NCBI GenBank assembly: GCA_016795105.1
Contig: JAEUIH010000051.1
Span: 1 to 55,579 of the forward strand
Direction of reading: 5' to 3'
Origin: Planctomyces sp.
GTDB taxonomy: Bacteria > Planctomycetota > Planctomycetia > Planctomycetales > Planctomycetaceae
Length of the DNA: 55,579 nt
Shown: positions 1 to 12,685 of the stretch, one piece after another
Layout: each line of letters opens with the position of its first letter
Position numbering within the stretch: the stretch's first letter is position 1
Notes under the pieces: generated by a model
The model's database searches: none
The model's input: the letters and a program-made list of their open reading frames with translations, nothing else
Told to the model about the DNA's origin: nothing
Position numbers and translations under genes: made by a program

Positions 1-320
1 ACCTCCGAAGCAACGCCGGACCCCGGACCCACAAAATTCACTTCAAACGATGCCAGACACCCGTCGTTCGAACCAATGATCAGCGATACCGGCGTGTAAC
101 ACCACGTATTCAGCAGCGAATCCGAACACGAATTCGGGTCCGACATGTCAAACACATACGCGGCACTCGGTGGACAGTTCGGGCACTCCCGGTTCGTCAG
201 GCCACTCACCGTCACACGGTAGTAACGAGTGATCCCGTTCACACAGCACTTGCACAGCAGTTCCGTTGAAGTTCCCGGCATCGTCTTCGCCTTCCGAAAA
301 AGAGAGAACAACCCACTCAT
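1..320 (-). CDS. Cys-rich protein of unknown function (partial, runs off the left edge)
   Basis: An open frame starts with ATG at 320 and continues without a stop through the window edge, giving at least 106 residues. It starts 22 nt after the stop of the upstream glycosyltransferase gene, so it looks like the next gene of that operon. The N-terminus is basic (MSGLFSLFRKAK), followed by a Cys cluster C-K-C-C and, about 25 residues later, C-P-N-C, flanking a stretch around RYYRVTVSGLT. This resembles a metal-binding or disulfide-rich fold that I recall from planctomycete phage-like or appendage-like proteins, but no function can be assigned. A shorter TTG-initiated frame at 148-342 overlaps it in another phase and is probably spurious. 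The missing C-terminus prevents a better call. Confidence 0.6.
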   Translation of the reverse strand, partial: MSGLFSLFRKAKTMPGTSTELLCKCCVNGITRYYRVTVSGLTNRECPNCPPSAAYVFDMSDPNSCSDSLLNTWCYTPVSLIIGSNDGCLASFEVNFVGPGSGVASE

Positions 321-342
321 ACAACGTCTGACGATCAGTCAA

Positions 343-1368
343 CTAATCCACTCGTCCGATCTCATCTGCAAAACCGACCGCAGTTCGACGCGGAGACGCC
401 GATAAACGGCCCCACATCGTGCTCGAAGTCCCAATATGCTGACAAAGACTCGGCGAATGCACTAAGAAGGGCGTACTTGTACGCTCACACCACGTTCCAA
501 CAACGGAGTCAATGCTCGCCAGCCCGTTCATCGCCCCGTTGCGCCGATGATGAAAGAACAGAGAATCACACAGGATCGCTCGTGCGACGCTGTTCGGAAT
601 GACCAGTGCCAGGGCTCCGCACAATTTTGAATGGCTTCCCAGCTCATGAAATCCCGATTCCGTAAACTGATTAAGAGTCGCTGGACAATAGAGAGACACA
701 AGGTGCGATTGCCGATGCGACCACAACTCCCTCTCCAGATAGGTTCGGGTGTCGGCACAAAACACGACATCATCCTGACACAGGAGGAACGCGTCAGCCT
801 TAGGGTTCAGCATGAAAAGTTCCGTCAGGCTCACATACCAGTTTGCGAATGCTCCCAGACGGATTCCGCGAGGACACCACCTGTGATCCCGGGAAAGACC
901 CTCGTTTGAAGAACCAGGTTCCGCAAAAATAAAGGCTTCGTTCCAACCGGCTGTCCGAAGACTTTGCAACATACGGGAGAGAGTATAGACAGATCGAGGT
1001 GCGGTCGTCACACCCACTGCCCAGGTGCGGATCGCATTGGATCCAGGAGTCAACTGATGGCAAAAATCCAGACAGCCACGACAATCGTCCGGCCCGTTCA
1101 CCTGATGCCCAGGGTGACTGCAGCTCCAGAATGCTGAGTCCTGAACAATTTGACTCCGAAGAAACATACAGTCATCCCCGTCTTCGTTCGTGTTCGGATT
1201 TCTCCGGGCCGTAGCCAGATACTGGAGGTCGCCACTCACAGAGCACATCCGGCAGACCGAGGCAGGAACGAGGTTATCTTCAGCATGCAGAAGTGGATGA
1301 GAGCAGAAATGCTGGTCGCCAATTCCCGCGACAACACGCCGATAACTGCAGGATTTCAGAATGGTCAT
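343..1368 (-). CDS. Glycosyltransferase-like protein with two N-terminal Cys/His modules
   Basis: 341 residues. The first 42 residues carry C7, C22-S-H24-P and C39-R-M-C42. A second, looser copy follows at about residues 67-100 (C, 15 residues, C-S-H-P, 10 residues, C-R-G-C), so this protein appears to hold a tandem pair. The rest starts with WAVGVTTAPR, has a QDDV acidic motif near residue 198 and a VHSPSLCQHIG motif near residue 304. That pattern belongs to a planctomycete family usually annotated as glycosyltransferase, so a nucleotide-sugar transferase role is likely but unproven. The ATG overlaps the stop of the upstream GT gene (ATGA), indicating translational coupling. The Cys/His modules could bind zinc or mediate docking; this is inference. 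Confidence 0.65.
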   Translation of the reverse strand: MTILKSCSYRRVVAGIGDQHFCSHPLLHAEDNLVPASVCRMCSVSGDLQYLATARRNPNTNEDGDDCMFLRSQIVQDSAFWSCSHPGHQVNGPDDCRGCLDFCHQLTPGSNAIRTWAVGVTTAPRSVYTLSRMLQSLRTAGWNEAFIFAEPGSSNEGLSRDHRWCPRGIRLGAFANWYVSLTELFMLNPKADAFLLCQDDVVFCADTRTYLERELWSHRQSHLVSLYCPATLNQFTESGFHELGSHSKLCGALALVIPNSVARAILCDSLFFHHRRNGAMNGLASIDSVVGTWCERTSTPFLVHSPSLCQHIGTSSTMWGRLSASPRRTAVGFADEIGRVD

Positions 1369-2954
1369 ACGTTTCCTCCTGCGTAGAAGGCCGCCTTGCC
1401 CAAGGTATGAGGCCCCGGATTCTCCTCAGAAGCAAAATGCTGACATTCCACATCCCAAAGCACCTTTGCGACGAGCCCCCGGCTCTGCACCTGAGCATAG
1501 AAGGCGCGATCAAAGTCCGGAAGTCGATATGCGTGAGAAAATGCAGCTTCCTGGATCACGCCTGAACGAATCAGGACACAGCCAAACCCATTTCCACCGA
1601 CTTCAGTTGCGCCACGCAACGGTGAGGTATATGACACGGTCTTTGAATCCCAGACCACATACGCTGATTCATATCGAGAACGATAGGGAGCTGCCACAGA
1701 AACAGTCTGCCCATCGAATTGCTCAAGCAACCGTAGTGCTACGTCTCTCGGAGGCAAAATGTCATCCTCAAGAATCCAAACAAGATCTGTCGACAGCTCC
1801 TCCTTCAGAAAGTTGTAGATCTTTGCCATGCTTCTTCGAACAGCCGCTGCCGATTCTCTTCTCGGAAGGTCGGCCAGCCTCCTGGTTCCAACGGCCTGTT
1901 GTACATGCCGAACATCGGAATAGTCACAGCCTTGAATCCAGCGACGAATGGTCTCTGAAAATTTCGGATTCTGACTCGTATCAAACAGGATCAGTCGGAC
2001 TTGATTGTGAGGCCATTGCTGCTCCTCAAGGAATGCGGCCATTTGAGGCCACAACAGTTCCCGGCCAGACAGAGGAACAAACAATGTCAGCAATTCTCGC
2101 GCAAGCCAAGCGGATTCAAAATAGCTGACTCCGCGAGCATTCCTTGCGAGCGCCGACTCAGAATGTCGACGGTAGTAATACATCCCTGACTGCTTGCGTG
2201 CAGTCCAGCCACAGGCGGCCAAACGTTTCCATAGCCACCAATCACCCGTACAGGACGAAGTGATCGCATCCAGCTCAGCCAGAAATGCATCAGTCAACTC
2301 CAGCGCATCTCTGCGGATCAGACTTCCCGCATGGATGAAATTCTGCTGATGCAGCGACGCACGACTGAAAGTCCCCGGAAACCTCCGAACCGCAGAACTA
2401 CTGCCAAACTGCTGCATATCCGAATAGACAATCGCAACTTGATCCGCAGTAAACTCGGCAAGCCCCCGCTCGATATACTCCGGCCCGAGTCGATCGTCGG
2501 CATCAAGAAAACAAAGAATACTGGAAGTGGTCTCCTCGAAGCCACGCCGACGAACATCATGAACATTCCCATAATCTACACTCAGCACCCGCACATTCCG
2601 GTCCGCGTACGATGAAGCGACGTCCCACGAATCATCATCCGAACGATCTACAATCACAAGTATCTCAGCAGGTCGCACGGTTTGCGCGAGAGCACTTTCA
2701 ATCGCGTCGCCAACATATCTCCCGTAGTTGTGGCAGGGAATCACCACGCCCACCGAAAATGGCGTCAGCAGTGAATGACTGTTCCGCGACTGTTCCCAGG
2801 TGCGAGCTGATGCCGGACGTGGTTGATCGACGTATGGACAGGTTCGGCACATGGACGACGTCACCAGCCCGTTGCGCACAATCACACCCGGATGCTGGCA
2901 AAAATATTGATTCTGTTCAGCAAGAACCTGTCGACAGGCGCACTCCCGGAGCAT
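1365..2954 (-). CDS. Two-domain family 2 glycosyltransferase with N-terminal Cys/His module
   Basis: The start is placed at ATG 2954 because GGGAGG lies about 9 nt upstream; a TTG start at 2984 is possible. The 529-residue protein begins with C5, C19-Q-H21 and C36-R-T-C39, the module shared with its neighbours. A GT2 domain follows (VGVVIPCHNYGRYV; acidic motif FLDADDR) up to about residue 275. A second GT-like half begins near residue 300 and contains the DxD-type motif LEDDI. GT2 enzymes transfer sugars from nucleotide-sugar donors in the cytoplasm, so the protein probably builds a surface glycan or decorates a protein. The gene is first in a minus-strand group with 343-1368 and 1-320. The acceptor is unknown. 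Confidence 0.8.
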   Translation of the reverse strand: MLRECACRQVLAEQNQYFCQHPGVIVRNGLVTSSMCRTCPYVDQPRPASARTWEQSRNSHSLLTPFSVGVVIPCHNYGRYVGDAIESALAQTVRPAEILVIVDRSDDDSWDVASSYADRNVRVLSVDYGNVHDVRRRGFEETTSSILCFLDADDRLGPEYIERGLAEFTADQVAIVYSDMQQFGSSSAVRRFPGTFSRASLHQQNFIHAGSLIRRDALELTDAFLAELDAITSSCTGDWWLWKRLAACGWTARKQSGMYYYRRHSESALARNARGVSYFESAWLARELLTLFVPLSGRELLWPQMAAFLEEQQWPHNQVRLILFDTSQNPKFSETIRRWIQGCDYSDVRHVQQAVGTRRLADLPRRESAAAVRRSMAKIYNFLKEELSTDLVWILEDDILPPRDVALRLLEQFDGQTVSVAAPYRSRYESAYVVWDSKTVSYTSPLRGATEVGGNGFGCVLIRSGVIQEAAFSHAYRLPDFDRAFYAQVQSRGLVAKVLWDVECQHFASEENPGPHTLGKAAFYAGGNV

Positions 2955-3358
2955 CACAGACACACCCTCCCGATGCCGCTTCAAACCAGAACCAATCGTT
3001 CTCCGAACCGCTCTCGCTGAATTTCAGCAAAGATTCGCAGGCAAGCTGTACTTCGATCAAACCACAGAAGGATCACCGCAATTCTACGCTTTGGCACTAA
3101 AGCCTTCTGTCTGTAACGATGCCCCGCAGGATGCATCGGACGTGTGTGCAGGCGTGTGGAAATCGTACTCACCCTACATTATATCGTCAATTGGGAAATC
3201 AGTCAGATTTCTAATAAACCTTTAAAGTCCTTTCGCGACAGAAAATCTGTCCTCGGATGTGTTCTTAAGTGTATTTCGTACATACGATTTTATGATCTGA
3301 ATGCTGGTGTAGTTCTAATAGGTTTTCAATACAAGCCACGTATATAGGTATTGCCGAT
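2955..3358. other. Divergent intergenic region between two Cys/His-module genes
   Basis: About 400 bases without a convincing gene. It lies between the minus-strand GT start at 2954 and the plus-strand small protein at 3359, so it should hold promoters for both. The right half (3170-3350) is clearly more AT-rich than the surroundings. I could not pick a -35/-10 pair with confidence. Confidence 0.4.
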
Positions 3359-3784
3359 ATGCAGCCATTGCCTTCATGTGAATATCGAGTCGATTTGAGC
3401 TTCACGGACAAGTACTTCTGCAGGCATAGCGGTGTACAAATCAGGGACTCCATCGTCACGAGTGCAATATGCAGGCATTGTCCCCAGAGGAATCTGAATT
3501 GTGAGGAACCGCGCCCCGCTCCGTCGGAACTGCAGCTCTCAGCGCAACTACCCGTACCACTTGCTGAAAAGGTATTCAACTTCACTTCTGCTGTAGCAGC
3601 GTTCGTTTCTGATGGGTTTCAGCTTGTTGATAAGGAGACTTACGCAGAACGAATGGCTGTCTGTGAGCTTTGTGAGCTTCGGTCGGGCAATTATTGTGGG
3701 AAGTGTGGTTGCGCGCTTTCTCTGAAAGCTTCAGGACGTGTGTTTCAATGCCCGATCGGGAAATGGGGAAAAACTGAGGATTAG
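3359..3784 (+). CDS. Stand-alone Cys/His-module protein with a CGC...CPxGKW C-terminal domain
   Basis: 141 residues in two parts. The N-terminal 41 residues contain C7, C21-R-H23 and C38-R-H-C41, matching the module at the start of the two neighbouring GTs; similarity continues into an E-P-R-P-A-P segment. The C-terminal part (about residues 98-138) has C-x2-C, then C-G-K-C-G-C and finally C-P-I-G-K-W. I know that pattern from small zinc-binding proteins of phages and glycan loci. It is the only plus-strand gene in the first 10.7 kb and carries no enzyme domain, so it may be an adaptor or metal-binding partner of the GTs. Function unknown. Confidence 0.7.
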   Translation: MQPLPSCEYRVDLSFTDKYFCRHSGVQIRDSIVTSAICRHCPQRNLNCEEPRPAPSELQLSAQLPVPLAEKVFNFTSAVAAFVSDGFQLVDKETYAERMAVCELCELRSGNYCGKCGCALSLKASGRVFQCPIGKWGKTED

Positions 3785-3817: not shown

Positions 3818-4867
3818 TCAGAGAATGGCAGGCAGGTGTCTCAAGATCGGAAACTGAGGACTTTCGTTTTCAAGGAGTTCGAAGACTCGATCCAACTGAT
3901 CGAAATAGAGATGCGCCGCAATTCGGTCCACCACAATTTCGAGGGCACTGAGATCTGTGCTGGGTGAGAGTGTATTGCCGCAGTGCGCCAATAGTTCTTC
4001 GATCAAACCAAATCGAAAGAGAGGGCCCGGCACCGGAATCGCTTTTCCGTGCTCTCTCAGCAGCATTGTGAAAAATCGATCATGGTCGGCCGCCCATTGG
4101 TTCCAGCTGCGATCAGAAACCACCCGCGATGCTTCGCATTTTCGTTCGTAACATCTTGTGACGAGTGTTACAAGAGCGTCAGGATCACCAGCGGGGTAAA
4201 GATGAATGTGTTCAGTGCCTTTGAATTCGGGTACGGCACCGACACCTTCAGGCGCGATGACCGGCTTACCCATCCCCAGTCCCTCAAAGAGACTCATTGG
4301 TCCACCCTCCACCGTTGCTGGAATCAGGACAAAATCAACTCGCTGGTAGATTTCTCGGAGGGAGCTTTCGGGCAGTCGGCCTTCAGTCGTAACAATTTCC
4401 ACGAACGTCAATTCTCGCAGTTTGTTTACGAGATGAACGCCTTTGCGAGGATTGTCCAGTTGCCCGATCACACCAAGGACGAGCGAAGGTCGATAGCGAA
4501 GTGAATCAAATCCCATGGGGATATGAACCACTGGCTTTGCTGTAATCTGCTTCAGCCAGTCTGAATAGATTCGAGCCATGCAAACACAGGCGTCCATGGC
4601 GCTGGCCCGGTTCTGAAACTCAAACGATTCGTCCCTATGAGTAAAGAAGCCGACGTCGAGCAGCCCACTGGGGGCTTCAAACAGTGCATAATTGACATAG
4701 TATGCGAGAACTCCATGACGTTGAGGACGCCATGCTGAAAACGATGCGTACGGAAGCTTACGTACCAGGATTGACGCCAGCTTCTGAAGGACCCAATTGT
4801 CAGTGGGGCCAACAATCTGTATGAGTGAGTTGTCAGACAATGCGCCCCTCCCAGTCAGTGGTACCAT
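3818..4867 (-). CDS. Group 1 (GT-B) glycosyltransferase
   Basis: About 349 residues from ATG 4867; a TTG at 4891 would add eight residues. The C-terminal half is a glycosyltransferase group 1 domain: VVHIPMGFDSLRYRP, a VLGVIGQLDNPRKG donor-binding loop, and EGGPMSLFEGLGMGKPVIAP, the usual E-x7-E nucleotide-sugar site. A further region after residue 250 is not recognised. The gene follows the IscU-like gene by about 70 nt on the same strand and converges with the small Cys/His protein gene, whose stop is only 33 nt away. Likely a sugar transferase for the glycan made by this locus; donor and acceptor cannot be read from the sequence. Confidence 0.78.
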   Translation of the reverse strand: MVPLTGRGALSDNSLIQIVGPTDNWVLQKLASILVRKLPYASFSAWRPQRHGVLAYYVNYALFEAPSGLLDVGFFTHRDESFEFQNRASAMDACVCMARIYSDWLKQITAKPVVHIPMGFDSLRYRPSLVLGVIGQLDNPRKGVHLVNKLRELTFVEIVTTEGRLPESSLREIYQRVDFVLIPATVEGGPMSLFEGLGMGKPVIAPEGVGAVPEFKGTEHIHLYPAGDPDALVTLVTRCYERKCEASRVVSDRSWNQWAADHDRFFTMLLREHGKAIPVPGPLFRFGLIEELLAHCGNTLSPSTDLSALEIVVDRIAAHLYFDQLDRVFELLENESPQFPILRHLPAIL

Positions 4868-4940
4868 TCGAAAATTGTTGCAGTGTCGCAAGTCGGACCC
4901 TGGGGATCACACGGTTTGACAGCCTCGCCAGCCGGCAGAA

Positions 4941-5309
4941 TCAGGTTTGTGATGAATTCTGTATCGCCAGTCGCAACGCCTCTATGGCAAACCGGGGACC
5001 ATGACGTTTGTCGGGAGGAACGCCGTCAAGCTGTTGGACGAGATCGTCTGAGGAAATCAGTCGACATTCCTGAAGAGTCTTTCCAATCGTTATGGTTGTC
5101 AGGATAGAGCCGCTGGCAATCATGACCCCGCAGTTGTGGCACTCAAATGCAGCGGAAGCAATGATCTCTTCAGTACAGATAATCTGAAACATGAGGAATG
5201 GCCCTTCCCCCGGAACGCCAACGACACCTACCCCTGACGGATTCTTCAGTTTTCCTCGGTTCCGAGGCTGCACGAAATGATCCATAATGATCTCTGAATA
5301 TCGGCTCAC
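4941..5309 (-). CDS. IscU/NifU-like protein lacking two of the three cluster cysteines
   Basis: 122 residues. The GTG start at 5309 has a strong AGGAGG about 8 nt upstream. The N-terminus (YSEIIMDHFVQPRNRGKL) is a clear match to the IscU/NifU N-terminal fold. In bona fide IscU the cluster is held by three Cys and an Asp. Here the first site reads G-V-P-G-E-G-P instead of G-A-P-A-C-G-D, the second is kept (C-G-V-M-I-A-S-G-S), and the third reads K-R-H-G-P instead of K-I-H-C-S. With Cys1, Asp and Cys3 missing, ordinary scaffold function is doubtful. No iscS, iscA or hscAB is nearby; the gene sits 27 nt after a giant glycosyltransferase gene. A role tied to glycan enzymes is inference. Confidence 0.8.
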   Translation of the reverse strand: MSRYSEIIMDHFVQPRNRGKLKNPSGVGVVGVPGEGPFLMFQIICTEEIIASAAFECHNCGVMIASGSILTTITIGKTLQECRLISSDDLVQQLDGVPPDKRHGPRFAIEALRLAIQNSSQT

Positions 5310-5335: not shown

Positions 5336-8300
5336 TCAGCGACTTTGACGGCCCCGCAGGTGTTTCCAGATGTCCAGAAGCCGCCCATCGCGAGGCAATT
5401 TCTTCAGGGCGGCCTGCACATAATGAAGTGCTGTTTCCATATCTCCGGACTGTTCACAGAGGGTCGCGAGTCGCTCCAGGGTCTGCATGCGGCCAGGTTC
5501 CAGATTCAAACACCTCTCGAACTGCAATCGAGAATTGTCAGAGTCACCGATCAGCGAGAATGCGGTACCGAGGTTGTGAAGTACGACAGGATTATCCGGC
5601 TGAATCGCTCGCATTTGCTCAAGTATCTGAATCCCGTCGTTCAGGAACCCGTGCTCGAGCTGAATTCGAGCAAGTTCATCAAGACAGGCGATATCGCCGG
5701 TGGAACGGAACGCTGGTTGCAGAACGCGCGAAACTTCATGGAATTCCTGATTCGCTTCAAGACACAGTGCTTCTGCAATCGCTGTTTCCGCCGAATGAGG
5801 GATGAATTCTCTCATCCGACTGATGATTCCACGGGCCAACTCAGTCTGTCTTCTCGAAATTCTGTGACGAACGAGACACAGCCATCCGGGTCCAAAGTGA
5901 GGATTCTCTCCAATGGCACGAAGCCACTGTGCCTCCGCCTCCTGATCTCTGCCGACCTGTTGGTAGGCCAACGCAAGATTGTGATTTGCTTTGAATCCCA
6001 TGATCGACGGGTCAATACTCGTGAACGTTCTCACCGTTGAAGGTTTCAGAACCTCTTCAAATGCTGAAATCGCCTCTTCATATCGGCCGTCATCAAGGCA
6101 CAGGCAGCCATACCGAAACAACAATTCACGGTCTTCCGGAAAGTGATTGATCGCAATTCTGGTCTCATCAATAGCATCTTCGAGCCTGCCCTGCATTCTG
6201 AGGCAATTAACGAGCAATGATCTTGCTTTAGGCACATGCGATTCATCGTTCCCCGAGACCTCAAGGCAGCGTCGAAGATATCGTTCGGCTTCAGCATGCT
6301 GATTCGCATCATCATAAGTCATCCCGAGATTGAACAGCACGAAAGGGTGGTCCGGCCGGTCTGCAAGGTCGAGGTGCAGGATGCGGAAGTCGCGTTCCAG
6401 TTTTCGTTGTCGGATTTCGGGAGTCGGGTCTGAGCCGCTGTGAATGACATAAATGTCTGTGAACTGAACCGTTCCGCCTGCACGTCGGATAGACGGAAGG
6501 ATTTGCTCATGAATGCGATGTTCGAAACGCAGTTCACGGCGATTGCGGAACAGTTTGATGTGGTCGACGATGGTCATTTGTCCCCGTGTTGCGGACGTAC
6601 AATGAACCTGCATGACGTACCCGAAACAATCCGGAGAATGTTCTCTGCGCACCAATTCCAGGAGTCGTCGACCCTGATCCTGAGGGATCACGTCATCCGA
6701 ATCCATCCAGAAAATCCAGTCGCCGGTTGCGTACTTCAATGACTCATTCCGGGCCGCGGCGAAGTCATCGCACCAGGGAAACTCAAACAATCGCACGCCG
6801 AATCGTCTGCAAATTGAAGGCGTTTGATCTGATGAACCCGTATCAACGACAATAATTTCATCCACCCACGGATAGATACTGTCAAGGCAGGCTTCAATTG
6901 TATCCTCATTGTTGCGGACAATCATACAGAGTGAGACCCGGACTGCAGCCCGCTTCAACAGAAACTCGCCCTGCAGCGATTCCATCACTCGATATCGACT
7001 GCCATCTGCCCTATCATCACAGGTGGCTTCTCGTTGGTCCGAAGTCCCCTGCGAACCTCTTTCTGGCTCCCACTTTTCCAGATACAACTGCTGATTGCGA
7101 GCCAGAATCTCAGAGAGATCGAACCCGGCACCTCGAAATGTTGCGCTGCCGAAGTGATGGACAAACACGCTGTGAACGATGACCGCCTTGAAACCACGTG
7201 CAATCGCTCTCCTGCAAAAATCATCATCTTCAAAACATCCGACCTCAAAACGCTCATCCAACAATCCGATTTGATCAATGACGCTCCTGTGTATCAACAG
7301 GCAGAATCCAACAAGTCGATCGGTGAGTGTCAAACGGCGGTCCTGTCGACACTGCCAGGCAAATCCGTCGAGGCTGGAAAGGTCTTCATAGGAAACAGCG
7401 ATCTGTTGTTCGCCACTAACACAGTTGGAAACCGGTCCAACGAGTCCGTTTTGCGAATTGTCATAGAGAGCTTCGAGCAATCCGCTGAGCCATCCGGTCG
7501 TTACGATGCAGTCATTGTTCAGGAGCAGAATCTGCTTGCCGATGGAAACCTCAATTCCCTGATTCACAGCAGCGGCAAACCCGCGATTGTCTTTGTTGAG
7601 CAGCACTCGAGCATTCGGGATCGTCGACAGATACTCCGGAGTCCCATCTGTCGATCCATTGTCCACAAAGATCAGCTCCACATCTTCATCGGTCCGGGAG
7701 ATGAGGCTGTCAACACATTGCTGGGTAAACCAAAGCTGATTGAATGTCACAATGATGATGGATGTCGTTCCAAAGTCCCTCGAATTGATTCGGTTCGCCT
7801 TAATGATGTGCTGATACGTGAAAAACTCTTCTGCATCCGGCTCCGAGAGCCCGGACAACTGAAGTCGACCCGCGCTAATCACACCTGGTCGGCCTGATTC
7901 ATTCCATTCTCGGTATCCCGGTCCGGGAATGGCGATCCGCCGAACGACATGCAGTCCTGCTCTGAACAGCAGCTTTTCAATTTCTCTCCGCGTAAAGCAG
8001 CGGACGTGATCATCGTCAAGTATTCCTGCCCGTTCATACGTCCAGTTACCATCAATTAATCCCGAAACCACACTGACATTGCGACTGTTTGGGACACTGA
8101 CAATCACGGTTCCATCAACGCTGAGCCAACGAATGCACTTTCTCAGAACTGCCAGCGGGTTCCGCAGGTGTTCAAGAACATCTGCGAAGATCAGGCAGTC
8201 AAACGCATCTGACCGAAAGTGCTGGTCACTCACAGCCTCAACTGAGTCGTTGACGACATCATCAAGGACTTCGGCGGCTCGGCGTGCAGCATCCGCAGAT

Positions 8301-9304
8301 TCCTCAATTCCAGTGACATGGCAGGCCCGCTCCGATTTCAATGCAGCACCAAGGCGACCGCCGCCGCAGCCGATATCAAGAATGCGGGTAGAGGACAACG
8401 GGATAAGCGACCGAACATCAGGTCGATCAAACTCGTAGTAATTCACAGATTTCTGAGACCCTGTCGCAGAGGCTCGTTTCGAAGATGAACGGTTCAGCAA
8501 CTGCCGCATGCGATGCTCATACGTGTGAAGTCTCAGGACAACTTCTTGCGCGGCTGATGCAAGGCGATGGCACTCAGATTCATTTCTGACAACAAAGTGC
8601 ACCTTGTCAATCAATTCCTCTGGTGAGTCATACGTCCAGATATTCTGTTCCTGCGAAAACAGCTCTTCAAATCCATTGTCAGCAATCTGGTTGGTGATCA
8701 GCGGTATTCCACAGGCTTGAATCTCGAACAGCCGCATGTTCAGATCATTTGAAATGCTGCAGTTAAAGCCACAGCGCCCCTGCGTATAGACACGTGCCAT
8801 TTCGCTGAAATACGCGTTTCCAATCCAGCAATTTGGAAACTCGTCCTGCAGCAGGCGCAGCATTTTGATGCGTCGATCACCAATCTGGTTTCCGACAAAA
8901 ACGGCATCATGACGCTTCGGATGCCCCGGGAGCGGTCGATGGATCTGAGGGTCGCATGCCAGTGGGAGCCAGTCGACACGTCTTCCGGTCAGTCGCTGCA
9001 GCGATTCAGCTCCGTCTTTCTGCGCAGCGAACAGGAAATCGCTATCGCCAAATCGTAGTTGACAACGGAGCAAATCAACATGCGTATCAATGACCCACGA
9101 AGCTTTTGGACGACAATGGGCCGGTATCTGATAGTCGAGGCCGTCATCCACAAACACGAACAAATCAAATCCAGACACATCCACATCCGGCAGATCTTCC
9201 GGCAGCAAATGACGAACATCCGCAAGCTTGCTGAGTGCTCGTAGGCAATAGTGTCCAGTGGTTTCCGGTCTTGGACGATTGTCGAAAACGATTCCAACTC
9301 TCAT
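5336..9304 (-). CDS. Four-enzyme fusion: CgeB-like GT, SAM methyltransferase, two GT2 domains, TPR tail
   Basis: 1322 residues. In order: a CgeB/DUF3880-type glycosyltransferase (about 1-265; motif NMRLFEIQACGIPLI); a class I SAM methyltransferase (about 300-450; ILDIGCGGGRLG and FADVLEHLRNP); a GT2 domain (about 512-740; SIIIVTFNQ, FVDNGSTDGT, LLNNDC); a second GT2 of the TPR-glycosyltransferase type (about 785-985; LCMIVRNNEDTIE, VDTGSSDQT, WMDSDD); and roughly 330 residues of tetratricopeptide repeats. The ATG overlaps the upstream GT stop by 4 nt. Such proteins decorate surface polysaccharide or glycoproteins in the cytoplasm; the TPRs probably bind the acceptor or partners. All catalytic motifs appear intact. 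Confidence 0.85.
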   Translation of the reverse strand: MRVGIVFDNRPRPETTGHYCLRALSKLADVRHLLPEDLPDVDVSGFDLFVFVDDGLDYQIPAHCRPKASWVIDTHVDLLRCQLRFGDSDFLFAAQKDGAESLQRLTGRRVDWLPLACDPQIHRPLPGHPKRHDAVFVGNQIGDRRIKMLRLLQDEFPNCWIGNAYFSEMARVYTQGRCGFNCSISNDLNMRLFEIQACGIPLITNQIADNGFEELFSQEQNIWTYDSPEELIDKVHFVVRNESECHRLASAAQEVVLRLHTYEHRMRQLLNRSSSKRASATGSQKSVNYYEFDRPDVRSLIPLSSTRILDIGCGGGRLGAALKSERACHVTGIEESADAARRAAEVLDDVVNDSVEAVSDQHFRSDAFDCLIFADVLEHLRNPLAVLRKCIRWLSVDGTVIVSVPNSRNVSVVSGLIDGNWTYERAGILDDDHVRCFTRREIEKLLFRAGLHVVRRIAIPGPGYREWNESGRPGVISAGRLQLSGLSEPDAEEFFTYQHIIKANRINSRDFGTTSIIIVTFNQLWFTQQCVDSLISRTDEDVELIFVDNGSTDGTPEYLSTIPNARVLLNKDNRGFAAAVNQGIEVSIGKQILLLNNDCIVTTGWLSGLLEALYDNSQNGLVGPVSNCVSGEQQIAVSYEDLSSLDGFAWQCRQDRRLTLTDRLVGFCLLIHRSVIDQIGLLDERFEVGCFEDDDFCRRAIARGFKAVIVHSVFVHHFGSATFRGAGFDLSEILARNQQLYLEKWEPERGSQGTSDQREATCDDRADGSRYRVMESLQGEFLLKRAAVRVSLCMIVRNNEDTIEACLDSIYPWVDEIIVVDTGSSDQTPSICRRFGVRLFEFPWCDDFAAARNESLKYATGDWIFWMDSDDVIPQDQGRRLLELVRREHSPDCFGYVMQVHCTSATRGQMTIVDHIKLFRNRRELRFEHRIHEQILPSIRRAGGTVQFTDIYVIHSGSDPTPEIRQRKLERDFRILHLDLADRPDHPFVLFNLGMTYDDANQHAEAERYLRRCLEVSGNDESHVPKARSLLVNCLRMQGRLEDAIDETRIAINHFPEDRELLFRYGCLCLDDGRYEEAISAFEEVLKPSTVRTFTSIDPSIMGFKANHNLALAYQQVGRDQEAEAQWLRAIGENPHFGPGWLCLVRHRISRRQTELARGIISRMREFIPHSAETAIAEALCLEANQEFHEVSRVLQPAFRSTGDIACLDELARIQLEHGFLNDGIQILEQMRAIQPDNPVVLHNLGTAFSLIGDSDNSRLQFERCLNLEPGRMQTLERLATLCEQSGDMETALHYVQAALKKLPRDGRLLDIWKHLRGRQSR

Positions 9305-10725
9305 TGTACACTCCTCAGAGCCGTAAACAGAGGTTTATAGTGCGACTCCAGAATCTGGTCCCATGTGTGGAATGCGAGGAACCTCTCTCTGCCATTGCGC
9401 CCCAGTGATTCTGCAAGACGCGGATCATCGAGAAGTCGATTCAGGCAAAGACATAATTCCTGAGCGTTACCCGGTTCAAACAGAAGTCCAGTGACACCCT
9501 CGACGACGGTAAACGGCAGTCCGCCAATTCGACTTGCGACGACTGGCTTCGAAGCCCCCATTGCCTCAACTGCAGTTCTGCCAAGAGCTTCCTGTGCGAC
9601 TGTAGGCACCACAACAAGGTCACATTCTGCCATCAACCCTGGAAGATCCTCCTGTGACTTCCATCCTGCAAAACTGAGAAATGGAGCGGAAGGACCCACT
9701 GCGTCTGCAGTTGCAACAAGTTCAAAATCCTGCCGTTCGACCCAGAGTTCTGCACACGCTTCAAAGATCACATGAAATCCCTTCATGAATTCCGAAATCA
9801 GGCCGGCAAATAGGATTCGGGTCTTCAGCCGAGGACCACAGCGATCTGGAAGATTTTCAAAACGTTTCCGATCGAAGCCGCTTGGTATGACATATACATC
9901 GCGTGCGTAAGGTTCACACAACGCGCCGATCAGCGGATTGACCACGAGAATACCGGCCGCGTTTGCAAAGACATTCTGAAGTTCTGCACCGAATTCCGGC
10001 TCCGCAAAGCCGGCCAACTGTCGCTCGTCTGCGTGCAGGGCACCAGAAGATCGTGCGTTTTGTTCGACACAGTTGAGACAAGCATCACGTGTTGAAAGCT
10101 GAGATTTTCGACATTGCCGTATTCTCCCCCCTCCGTCGACCAGCAGCCTGACATTGTTGAGCGGGCAAAGGCACTCCATCGCTGCAAGTCGAATGTAGTA
10201 GGGAAACTCCGACACCGCTCTGGCGAGGATCGCCTTTGAATTCCATGAATCCGTTACGATGGTAGCATCCGGAGAAAACCCACGGATCGCTTCCCGAAAC
10301 CTTGCCTCAATCGCATCACGATTCCACGAGTCGTCGGTGAAAATCAATCCGCAGGTATTGTACGGTAGTGATTCGCTTACGCAGCCAATCGACCACGGTT
10401 CGTAGACTGCAAAGAAGTGGCAGACTTCATACCTGGCAGCTGAAAGGAATTGAGCCAGTTCAGCGGTATGCACGATACCGCCACCGGTCGAAGGCCAGTT
10501 AAAGAGCAGGCTTACAATTGCAATTCGCTGTCGTCGCGAATCTGCAGCTGGAGTGATCAAATCCATTGCATTCAGCAATCCATCAGCCATCAACAACCGT
10601 TGATTAAGCCGATCCGAAGCCGTGTTGCCATGGCGATCAAGCGTTTTGGCAAGTACCGTCTCTGTCAACAACAAGTCGTCGGGGCCAGAACACTGTGAAA
10701 TTCCGCCCGAGGTATTTGCTGACAT
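9301..10725 (-). CDS. Group 1 (GT-B) glycosyltransferase, first gene of the operon
   Basis: 474 residues. A Rossmann-like N-terminal part contains IAIVSLLFNWPSTGGGIVHT. A GT group 1 donor domain follows (RILFAGLISEFMKGFHV; VVPTVAQEALGRTAVEAMGA with the E-x7-E pair; G-G-L-P-F-T-V loop). A central insert at about residues 180-230 has four Cys (C-P-L..., C-R-K, C-L-N-C) and could bind a metal; this is not typical of the family. It is the promoter-proximal gene of the minus-strand glycosylation operon and overlaps the next gene by 4 nt. The probable role is sugar transfer to a surface glycan or glycoprotein. Confidence 0.82.
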   Translation of the reverse strand: MSANTSGGISQCSGPDDLLLTETVLAKTLDRHGNTASDRLNQRLLMADGLLNAMDLITPAADSRRQRIAIVSLLFNWPSTGGGIVHTAELAQFLSAARYEVCHFFAVYEPWSIGCVSESLPYNTCGLIFTDDSWNRDAIEARFREAIRGFSPDATIVTDSWNSKAILARAVSEFPYYIRLAAMECLCPLNNVRLLVDGGGRIRQCRKSQLSTRDACLNCVEQNARSSGALHADERQLAGFAEPEFGAELQNVFANAAGILVVNPLIGALCEPYARDVYVIPSGFDRKRFENLPDRCGPRLKTRILFAGLISEFMKGFHVIFEACAELWVERQDFELVATADAVGPSAPFLSFAGWKSQEDLPGLMAECDLVVVPTVAQEALGRTAVEAMGASKPVVASRIGGLPFTVVEGVTGLLFEPGNAQELCLCLNRLLDDPRLAESLGRNGRERFLAFHTWDQILESHYKPLFTALRSVQ

Positions 10726-11530: not shown

Positions 11531-12685
11531 ATGCCAACCACGACATTCGTCTGGGACCCGGTGAATGACTGTGTGATTTCTGAACTGGATGGTACAGGAA
11601 CGACTCAGGCGGTCTACACCAATGAACCGCAGCAGTACGGCGGTGTGCTCAGTCAGCGCCGCGGCAGTACCTCCAGCTTCCTCCACGCCGATGCACTCGG
11701 CACCACCCGACTGCTCACCAGCACCGCCGGAGCCACGACGGACACGTATCTCTTCGATGCCTGGGGAAATCCCGTCTCCAGCACCGGGTCCACCGTCAAC
11801 CCCTTTCGATGGGTCGGACGGTCTGGGTACTATACGGACAACGCAACCGGGCTCCTGTATGTCAGGGCAAGGATGTACCAGCCAACTATCGCGCGGTGGG
11901 TAAGTGTCGATCCTCTATCATTCCATAGCTTGTTCCTTGCAACAGCACGGCATCGATACGCGAATAATCGCCCTTCAACACATCTTGATCCGTCGGGACT
12001 GTTTACCGAAAAACACACACCACCGGGACTTCCTGAATACTTAGATCCTCTATCAGAGAACGACATAATACCTCTCTGGATACGAAATCTGATTTATTCC
12101 ATCGTGCCTGAGTGGACTCAATGTGAGACTTGGCAATGCGTACTTGCCGCTGCCACAGCGGGAATCGACAATGTGTTGATTACAGGGAAACCGCTCATCG
12201 AAATCGAAAAACGCGTTCGAGCTGAGCATTTCCATCCGATAGGCGCGTCTTGTCACGGGGGAGACTACTCAACGACTGAACAATGGAATTATACATATCC
12301 GCACAGAAAGGACGATCGATACATTGACTTAAGAAGCCCGTTTCTTGAAGACCCTGCCATTGCGGCAGTGCTCGGAATACTTGACCCAGAGTCGCTGGAC
12401 TTAATTTTTGGCCGTGCTTCGTTTACTTGTACAGTGTCCGAAAAACTCATGCTCAGTTGTTGTTCCTGCAAGTATAAAAGAACAGGAACAGCTTTCTGTC
12501 ACATCTCGGATGTATTTGACTTCCGACCAGATAAGAAATCGAGGCGATATAATCAGTTGGCTGAGATCTGGCAGTATTTGGTATGGAATGTGAGGAAGAC
12601 AGGACTGCCAGTGCACGAACCGCGTGTGCATGCATTTTTTGAGATACAACTTGACGAAGAGGGGGTACCGGAAGATTGTCCATAG
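11531..12685 (+). CDS. Orphan Rhs-repeat core with an unrecognised C-terminal domain
   Basis: 384 residues. Residues 1-158 are a C-terminal Rhs core: TTTFVWDPVNDCVISELDG, YGGVLSQRRGS, FLHADALGTTRLL, then a degenerate form of the usual YYDPxxGRFxxxDP block (VRARMYQPTIARWVSVDP) and a hinge ending LDPSGLF. Full Rhs proteins exceed 1000 residues; here all upstream YD repeats are absent, and a stop plus frame change just before the ATG indicate 5' truncation. The 225-residue tail is the variable region that in Rhs proteins often carries a toxin. It includes a Cys cluster (LSCCSCKYKRTGTAFCH) but no motif I recognise. The gene may be an orphan tip module or a pseudogene. Confidence 0.6.
   Translation: MPTTTFVWDPVNDCVISELDGTGTTQAVYTNEPQQYGGVLSQRRGSTSSFLHADALGTTRLLTSTAGATTDTYLFDAWGNPVSSTGSTVNPFRWVGRSGYYTDNATGLLYVRARMYQPTIARWVSVDPLSFHSLFLATARHRYANNRPSTHLDPSGLFTEKHTPPGLPEYLDPLSENDIIPLWIRNLIYSIVPEWTQCETWQCVLAAATAGIDNVLITGKPLIEIEKRVRAEHFHPIGASCHGGDYSTTEQWNYTYPHRKDDRYIDLRSPFLEDPAIAAVLGILDPESLDLIFGRASFTCTVSEKLMLSCCSCKYKRTGTAFCHISDVFDFRPDKKSRRYNQLAEIWQYLVWNVRKTGLPVHEPRVHAFFEIQLDEEGVPEDCP

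Follow-up and report, generated by a model that had tools for sequence, protein, structure and literature searches.

The closest described counterpart of the element reported here is the Cys4 iron finger of TibC, a heptosyltransferase of the BAHT group (TibC/AAH). According to the TibC study, this finger is required for assembly and has a role in recognising the acceptor, and its ligands, Cys339, Cys342, Cys358 and Cys370, form a C-x2-C-x15-C-x11-C pattern inserted in the GT-B-type catalytic domain (PMC4358343). Here, we describe a different cysteine-rich module in a Planctomyces sp. assembly of 8.9 Mb in 391 contigs, where it occurs on three neighbouring proteins, P1, P2 and P3, of a glycosylation gene island on contig C338 (positions 1-55,579, hereafter the window). 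The likeness to the BAHT enzymes consists in a four-cysteine metal finger on glycosyltransferases (GTs) that act on a repetitive surface protein, both the metal and the acceptor being predictions in our case. The differences are that the module, C-x(11-17)-C-x(15-16)-C-x(2-3)-C, stands near the N-terminus instead of within the catalytic domain and that the window enzymes are GT2 (P2) and GT-A-like (P1), not GT-B; among the fusions that we scanned elsewhere only one (locus L077) involves a GT9 enzyme, and there too the module is N-terminal. Since ligand order and spacing differ from those in PMC4358343, identity with the TibC finger is ruled out, and because placement and catalytic fold differ as well, we treat TibC as an analogy and not as a sign of membership: its iron finger may be regarded as the nearest functional analogue of the module.

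The three copies occupy residues 7-42 of P1 (1243-1350, minus strand), 5-39 of P2 (2838-2942, minus strand) and 7-41 of P3 (3377-3481, plus strand), exactly where the first-pass annotation of this DNA had placed them. A six-frame scan of the window with C-x(13,14)-C-x-H-x(14)-C-x(2)-C returned these three places only, and when the residues of the 48 window open reading frames (ORFs) of at least 100 amino acids (aa) were shuffled, motif-bearing proteins appeared at a mean of 0.0005 per set, that is, one event in 2000 shuffles. The modules are 38-46% identical to each other over 39-42 residues, with blastp E values of 1.3e-9 to 3.5e-13. A hidden Markov model (HMM) made from nine copies outside the window recovered P3, P2 and P1 at whole-sequence E values of 1.9e-18, 1.8e-13 and 5.7e-12, the best other among 1,124 frames reaching 0.035; because those nine copies came from searches seeded with the window copies, this test is not fully independent. 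Nor do the two further strong copies of the same genome count as independent evidence, since both lie on a 6.5 kb contig, C76, which bears a close relative of the window island (P3 87% and the NifU-like protein 84% identical). The module shared by P1, P2 and P3 is real.

Among 12 close copies, the positions C, C, H, C and C are invariant and the H-x14-C spacing is exact. When the comparison is widened to 30 distinct HMM matches (domain E 0.005 or better), the four-cysteine pattern is present in 28, and as the two matches without it (L082 and L048) were set aside, the constancy of the cysteines in these 28 copies is partly the result of selection. Between the first and second cysteine the gap ranges from 11 to 17 residues; between the second and third it is 16 in 24 copies and 15 in four; between the third and fourth it is 2 in 27 copies and 3 in one. 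The His position is occupied by H in 23 copies, S in four and N in one, and a copy outside this list, in L096, also has the four cysteines and S at that position. The H-to-C spacing of exactly 14 that the first-pass annotation noted in the three copies holds for the close copies but not for the wider set, in which the gap changes in four copies and His is replaced in five. Its C-R-x-C arginine varies, and in place of a C3H signature with CRxC it is the four cysteines that are constant. Because the cysteines are kept in 28 of the 30 matches while His varies, the ligand set is likely Cys4, with His as a common extra, and the module is probably a small metal-binding four-cysteine finger. The same annotation had asked for an HMM search for homologues with conserved cysteine spacing, which the 28 copies provide, and had pointed to a second, looser copy right after the first in P1. 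This unit (residues 67-99; 1072-1170, minus strand), with the pattern C-x15-C-x-H-x10-C-x2-C, is conserved in L022 and L083, the two homologues examined. Units that resemble it and end in C-x2-C-x-D-[FY] are found before the GT domain in L148 and in a frame of L081 that also bears a first copy.

The AlphaFold model of P3, built from a 9-row alignment in which 7 rows have the module, has a mean predicted local distance difference test score (pLDDT) of 81.8 and a predicted template modelling score of 0.49, and over the module it predicts strands at residues 10-12, 18-21 and 32-34 and a helix at 35-39, with pLDDT of 79-88 by tens of residues. No Pfam family passes its cut-off in the 12 module copies, the best among the matches listed being HscB_4_cys (E 0.014, in two of the 12 copies at E up to 1). 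Sequence searches of the PDB gave nothing better than E 0.03 for P3 and 1.9 for the module, and a PDB fold search with the P3 model gave no significant match; a glycyl radical enzyme chain (2y8n_B, Foldseek E 7.2, probability 0.05) was not used. Against predicted viral structures, one of 36 matches of P3 was at E 0.001 or better, to an uncharacterised Synechococcus phage protein. In the literature searched, whose coverage leaves out most subscription-journal papers, neither a description of the module nor the name DUF6171, the domain of P3 treated below, was found. The module is thus apparently unnamed, as had been supposed.

In P1 (343-1368, minus strand), the two cysteine units are followed by a GT-A-like domain (about residues 115-310; 439-1026, minus strand), for which a QDD motif common to P1 relatives (conserved family A9), the model and Foldseek are the evidence. 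P1 has no Pfam or NCBIfam match. Its model resembles most closely POMGNT1 and GnT I, protein-glycan GlcNAc transferases that we take to be GT13 enzymes, at E 8.9e-9 and a template modelling score of about 0.42-0.44, with 16-18% identity for POMGNT1; it differs from them in that the sequence of P1 matches no solved structure at E <0.5, and the model also matches many other GT-A enzymes (436 chains at E 0.001 or better). P2 (1365-2954, minus strand), whose stop overlaps the start of P1 (ATGA), is a GT2 enzyme by PF00535, at 84.2 bits against a cut-off of 23.3. P3 (3359-3784, plus strand; 141 aa) had been taken for a stand-alone module protein. It does bear the module but is not limited to it: residues 90-136 (3626-3766, plus strand) are a DUF6171 domain (PF19668, 28.1 bits against a gathering cut-off of 27; phrog_13558, E 1.6e-13). 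PF19668 and phrog_13558 both match the C-terminal half of P3 and leave the N-terminal module uncovered. In phage records, P1 had no match at E 0.01, whereas P3 matched 125, and in the 20 of these 125 that were listed the match falls within residues 68-140, the DUF6171 half.

Outside the window, the module is N-terminal to GT2 (L046, L083), DUF3431 (L045), GT4 (L075), GT2/CHGN plus GT4 (L073, L074), GT9 (L077), Mannosyl_trans3 (L080) and a P1-type domain (L078), and in L072 and L076, as in P3, it occurs without a GT domain. Because it precedes several unrelated glycosyltransferase types and also stands alone, its mobility is well supported, and the suggestion of a mobile module on glycosyltransferases and a small protein is borne out by these fusions and by those to DUF6171. 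The module is uncommon: at E 0.01 it is matched in 12 of 170 genomes of the same family, six of them strongly, and class-wide in 23 of 397, where eight matches are strong (E <1e-6), four are weaker with the pattern, two are taken as chance and, of the remaining nine, the two inspected (G424 and G695) did not show the pattern. The contig of one copy (L089) is labelled Deltaproteobacteria, which may be a binning matter. A first scan of genome contigs with the three copies gave 40 stretches, none of them confirmed, and a scan of viral contigs with single window proteins likewise gave none. Planctomycete glycosyltransferases or their neighbours bear other N-terminal cysteine-rich units, of a C-x-HRG type, in L146 (11243-13018), L148 (697-4314) and L075 (3627-5171), in the last of which the unit comes directly after the module; given where these units stand, they suggest that a wider set of such fingers exists.

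A second described system to which the locus can be compared is that of the RHS/YD-repeat polymorphic toxins, which it resembles in that the island ends with RHS genes and with displaced tip ORFs; the difference is that the island RHS genes are flanked by a multi-gene glycosylation cluster, a pairing that was not found in the literature searched, including the accessible part of PMC3482391. The island recurs in genomes of the same family. As read from its ORFs, L022 carries on a single strand a GT4-like gene, a methyltransferase-like gene, a giant GT/methyltransferase/TPR gene, two more genes, a NifU-like gene, P3, P2, P1 and RHS, with 4-base overlaps between P3 and P2 and between P2 and P1, and with the RHS gene beginning 15 bases after P1; such genes would be co-transcribed. 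In the window, where P3 is inverted but the gene set is the same, 22 bases separate P1 from the start of the RHS-type gene that follows it on its strand. The core order of L022 is kept in L023 without the P1 gene, and L083, L045 and L046 show parts of it. RHS_repeat is over its cut-off in six of eight ORFs scanned, all at module loci (L022, L023, L046, L073, L074 and L083).

The RHS-type gene of the window (3-320, minus strand) is represented by its first 106 aa, the contig end cutting it there. It has no Pfam match but resembles the cysteine-rich N-terminus of the RHS proteins of L022 and L083: an HMM from these two N-termini only matched it at E 2.1e-6, with the next match at 0.071. Window positions 1-400 share no 25-mer with pieces of C369, C63, C97 and C1 (four of the nine RHS contigs), and no end overlap was found with these or with C76. 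An orphan RHS-like tip (11531-12685, plus strand) matches the RHS C-terminal ORFs of L023 and L046 at blastp E 4e-43 and 8e-32; neither this tip nor an ORF of L088 has a Pfam match at 1e-6. Between the two lie, all on the minus strand, a GT1-type glycosyltransferase (3818-4891; PF13692, 38.2 bits), the NifU_N/IscU-like gene (4941-5309; PF01592, 77.6 bits against a cut-off of 22; phrog_8429, E 1.8e-16), a giant protein with glycosyltransferase, methyltransferase, GT2 and TPR parts by Pfam (5336-9304; similar ORFs in L018, L022, L023, L045 and L083) and, overlapping the giant gene at ATGA, a gene for a glycosyltransferase-like (GT4-like) protein (9301-10725; similar ORFs read in L022 and L023). 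The last protein has a cysteine-rich insert common to the window, L022 and L023, a different cysteine motif within the same island. Part of the island is present a second time in the same assembly (G000), on C76 (L018), with 84-87% identity in the two proteins compared, either by duplication or by strain mixture.

Phage genes are the other recurrent neighbours; neither they nor the RHS-type gene at the contig end nor the DUF6171 domain had been pointed out in the first-pass annotation. In L072, the stand-alone module protein lies in a prophage tail operon, amid tape measure, neck, head closure, head-tail adaptor, tail fibre and integrase genes identified with PHROGs. In L076, PHROGs identify two phage genes near the module gene, for an integrase and a head maturation protease, and a stand-alone protein adjoining this gene matches the RHS N-terminus model at E 2.2e-5. 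In G194, the island comes after a gpA-type terminase and a lambda-type portal ORF; the portal ORF (L023 480-1496), shortly before the island, has 338 aa, covers profile positions 8-253 of 354 and may be truncated. On IMG/VR contigs, DUF6171 adjoins a P1-type GT in L096, is separated from it by one small ORF in L134 and is fused to it in L094, and PHROGs confirmed tape-measure genes in L095 (DUF6171 plus GT) and L138 (P1-type GT). PHROGs gave no match for L096 1-3405, 3405-4412 and 6178-7677 or for L137 1-1257, so the putative tail identity of these neighbours comes from our reading of the ORFs; there was also no match for L075 11746-12672, and L077 17022-18011 matched only a family of no assigned function. 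In the window genome itself, contig C341 (L019; 8406-10181) carries DUF6171 over its cut-off at the end of a putative GT2, after a putative tape-measure gene. A protein resembling it stands directly before the island in G406 (L045 3-1754). An HldE-like gene (PfkB plus cytidylyltransferase) near DUF6171 in L088 hints at heptose in this one relative.

What might the module do? Its finger, with nearly fixed cysteine spacing, occurs on differing catalytic families and, within the same operon, on small proteins without catalytic function, which suggests a shared address domain at the front of unrelated glycosyltransferases and of the DUF6171 adaptor-like protein. Such a domain would bring these proteins together or to a common acceptor. 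The gene order of the window makes the adjacent RHS/YD-repeat surface protein the first candidate and the most likely acceptor. Phage virions can be glycosylated by phage enzymes. In the phage relatives the acceptor would more likely be a tail or cysteine-rich virion protein. A docking module that marks one glycosylation system, as the first-pass annotation proposed, is the best-supported reading, with metal binding and docking as predictions; for the whole proposal, a metal finger that brings enzymes to a common acceptor or to each other, we see the chances as about even. More tentatively, a portable tag may gather several glycosylation enzymes into a complex on a single repeat protein, the same cassette being exchanged between the tail operons of planctomycete tailed phages and RHS toxin islands; we consider this extension possible but rather doubtful.

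Several observations weigh against the address domain. Of the RHS-type gene of the window only the first 106 codons are present, with no repeat among them, and RHS repeats are common in this genome, with 47 matches on at least nine contigs. The module region is predicted with low confidence in the P1 model (pLDDT 37-53; mean 65.4), of which only the GT part is confident. In G489, G656 and G610, no RHS or phage gene was seen in the 19-20 kb read around the module-GT genes, which in this family follow a putative kinase gene (clear in L080) and a gene of 278-312 aa. P1-type GTs occur in 41 of 297 class genomes, and no Pfam match was obtained for window P1 and L078, the two examples with a single domain that were scanned. 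We took 20 further P1-type loci from 53 places, some of which end early at contig ends: none carries the module, four have an RHS gene (searched for with a model of a single RHS protein) and two have DUF6171. Two of the four, L146 and L147, nevertheless speak for a link to RHS, since their P1-type GTs, although without the module, sit 58 and 100 bases before the RHS genes. With no module in these 20 loci and RHS in four, the module and RHS are one setting of a wider glycosyltransferase family.

The same absence of the module from further P1-type loci would fit a finger that is a local structural cap stabilising the N-terminus of each enzyme, its co-occurrence coming from gene duplication and domain shuffling in one island with no shared partner; in L148 another N-terminal cysteine-rich unit takes the place of the module, and L146 has such a unit on a neighbouring protein. 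However, the module also occurs where there is no catalytic domain to cap (P3, L072 and L076), and its presence on several unrelated GT families would not be explained by a fold-specific cap, so that we hold this account to be unlikely, though the strongest of the three rivals. A different possibility gives the module proteins, and P3 in particular, the role of acceptor or of a component of tail assembly, with the enzyme copies self-modified or co-incorporated. The small, cysteine-rich protein beside tail genes in the L072 prophage would agree with it, and so would L096, where a module plus DUF6171 protein comes directly after a cysteine-rich ORF of 499 aa; yet the near-fixed cysteine spacing suits a metal site better than glycosylation sites and the fused copies sit on enzymes, which leaves this role quite improbable.

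Scarcely more probable is a site occupied by iron or an Fe-S cluster instead of zinc, with the neighbouring NifU-like protein serving it. The TibC finger holds iron, and the NifU-like gene is present in five aligned island copies (window, L018, L022, L023 and L045) and, from the ORF list, in L083. NifU/IscU scaffolds, however, have three conserved cluster cysteines, and the five aligned proteins of the 4941-5309 family have a single invariant cysteine, which makes them unlikely to be normal scaffolds; judging from these alignments, the island protein has probably lost the scaffold function and gained another.

If the module is an address tag, its sequence would serve as a handle for finding out which glycosyltransferases of planctomycetes and phages work as a group and what protein they modify. 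It would also extend metal-finger acceptor recognition from TibC to a second, unrelated arrangement, and would give DUF6171 and the P1-type enzymes a testable role.

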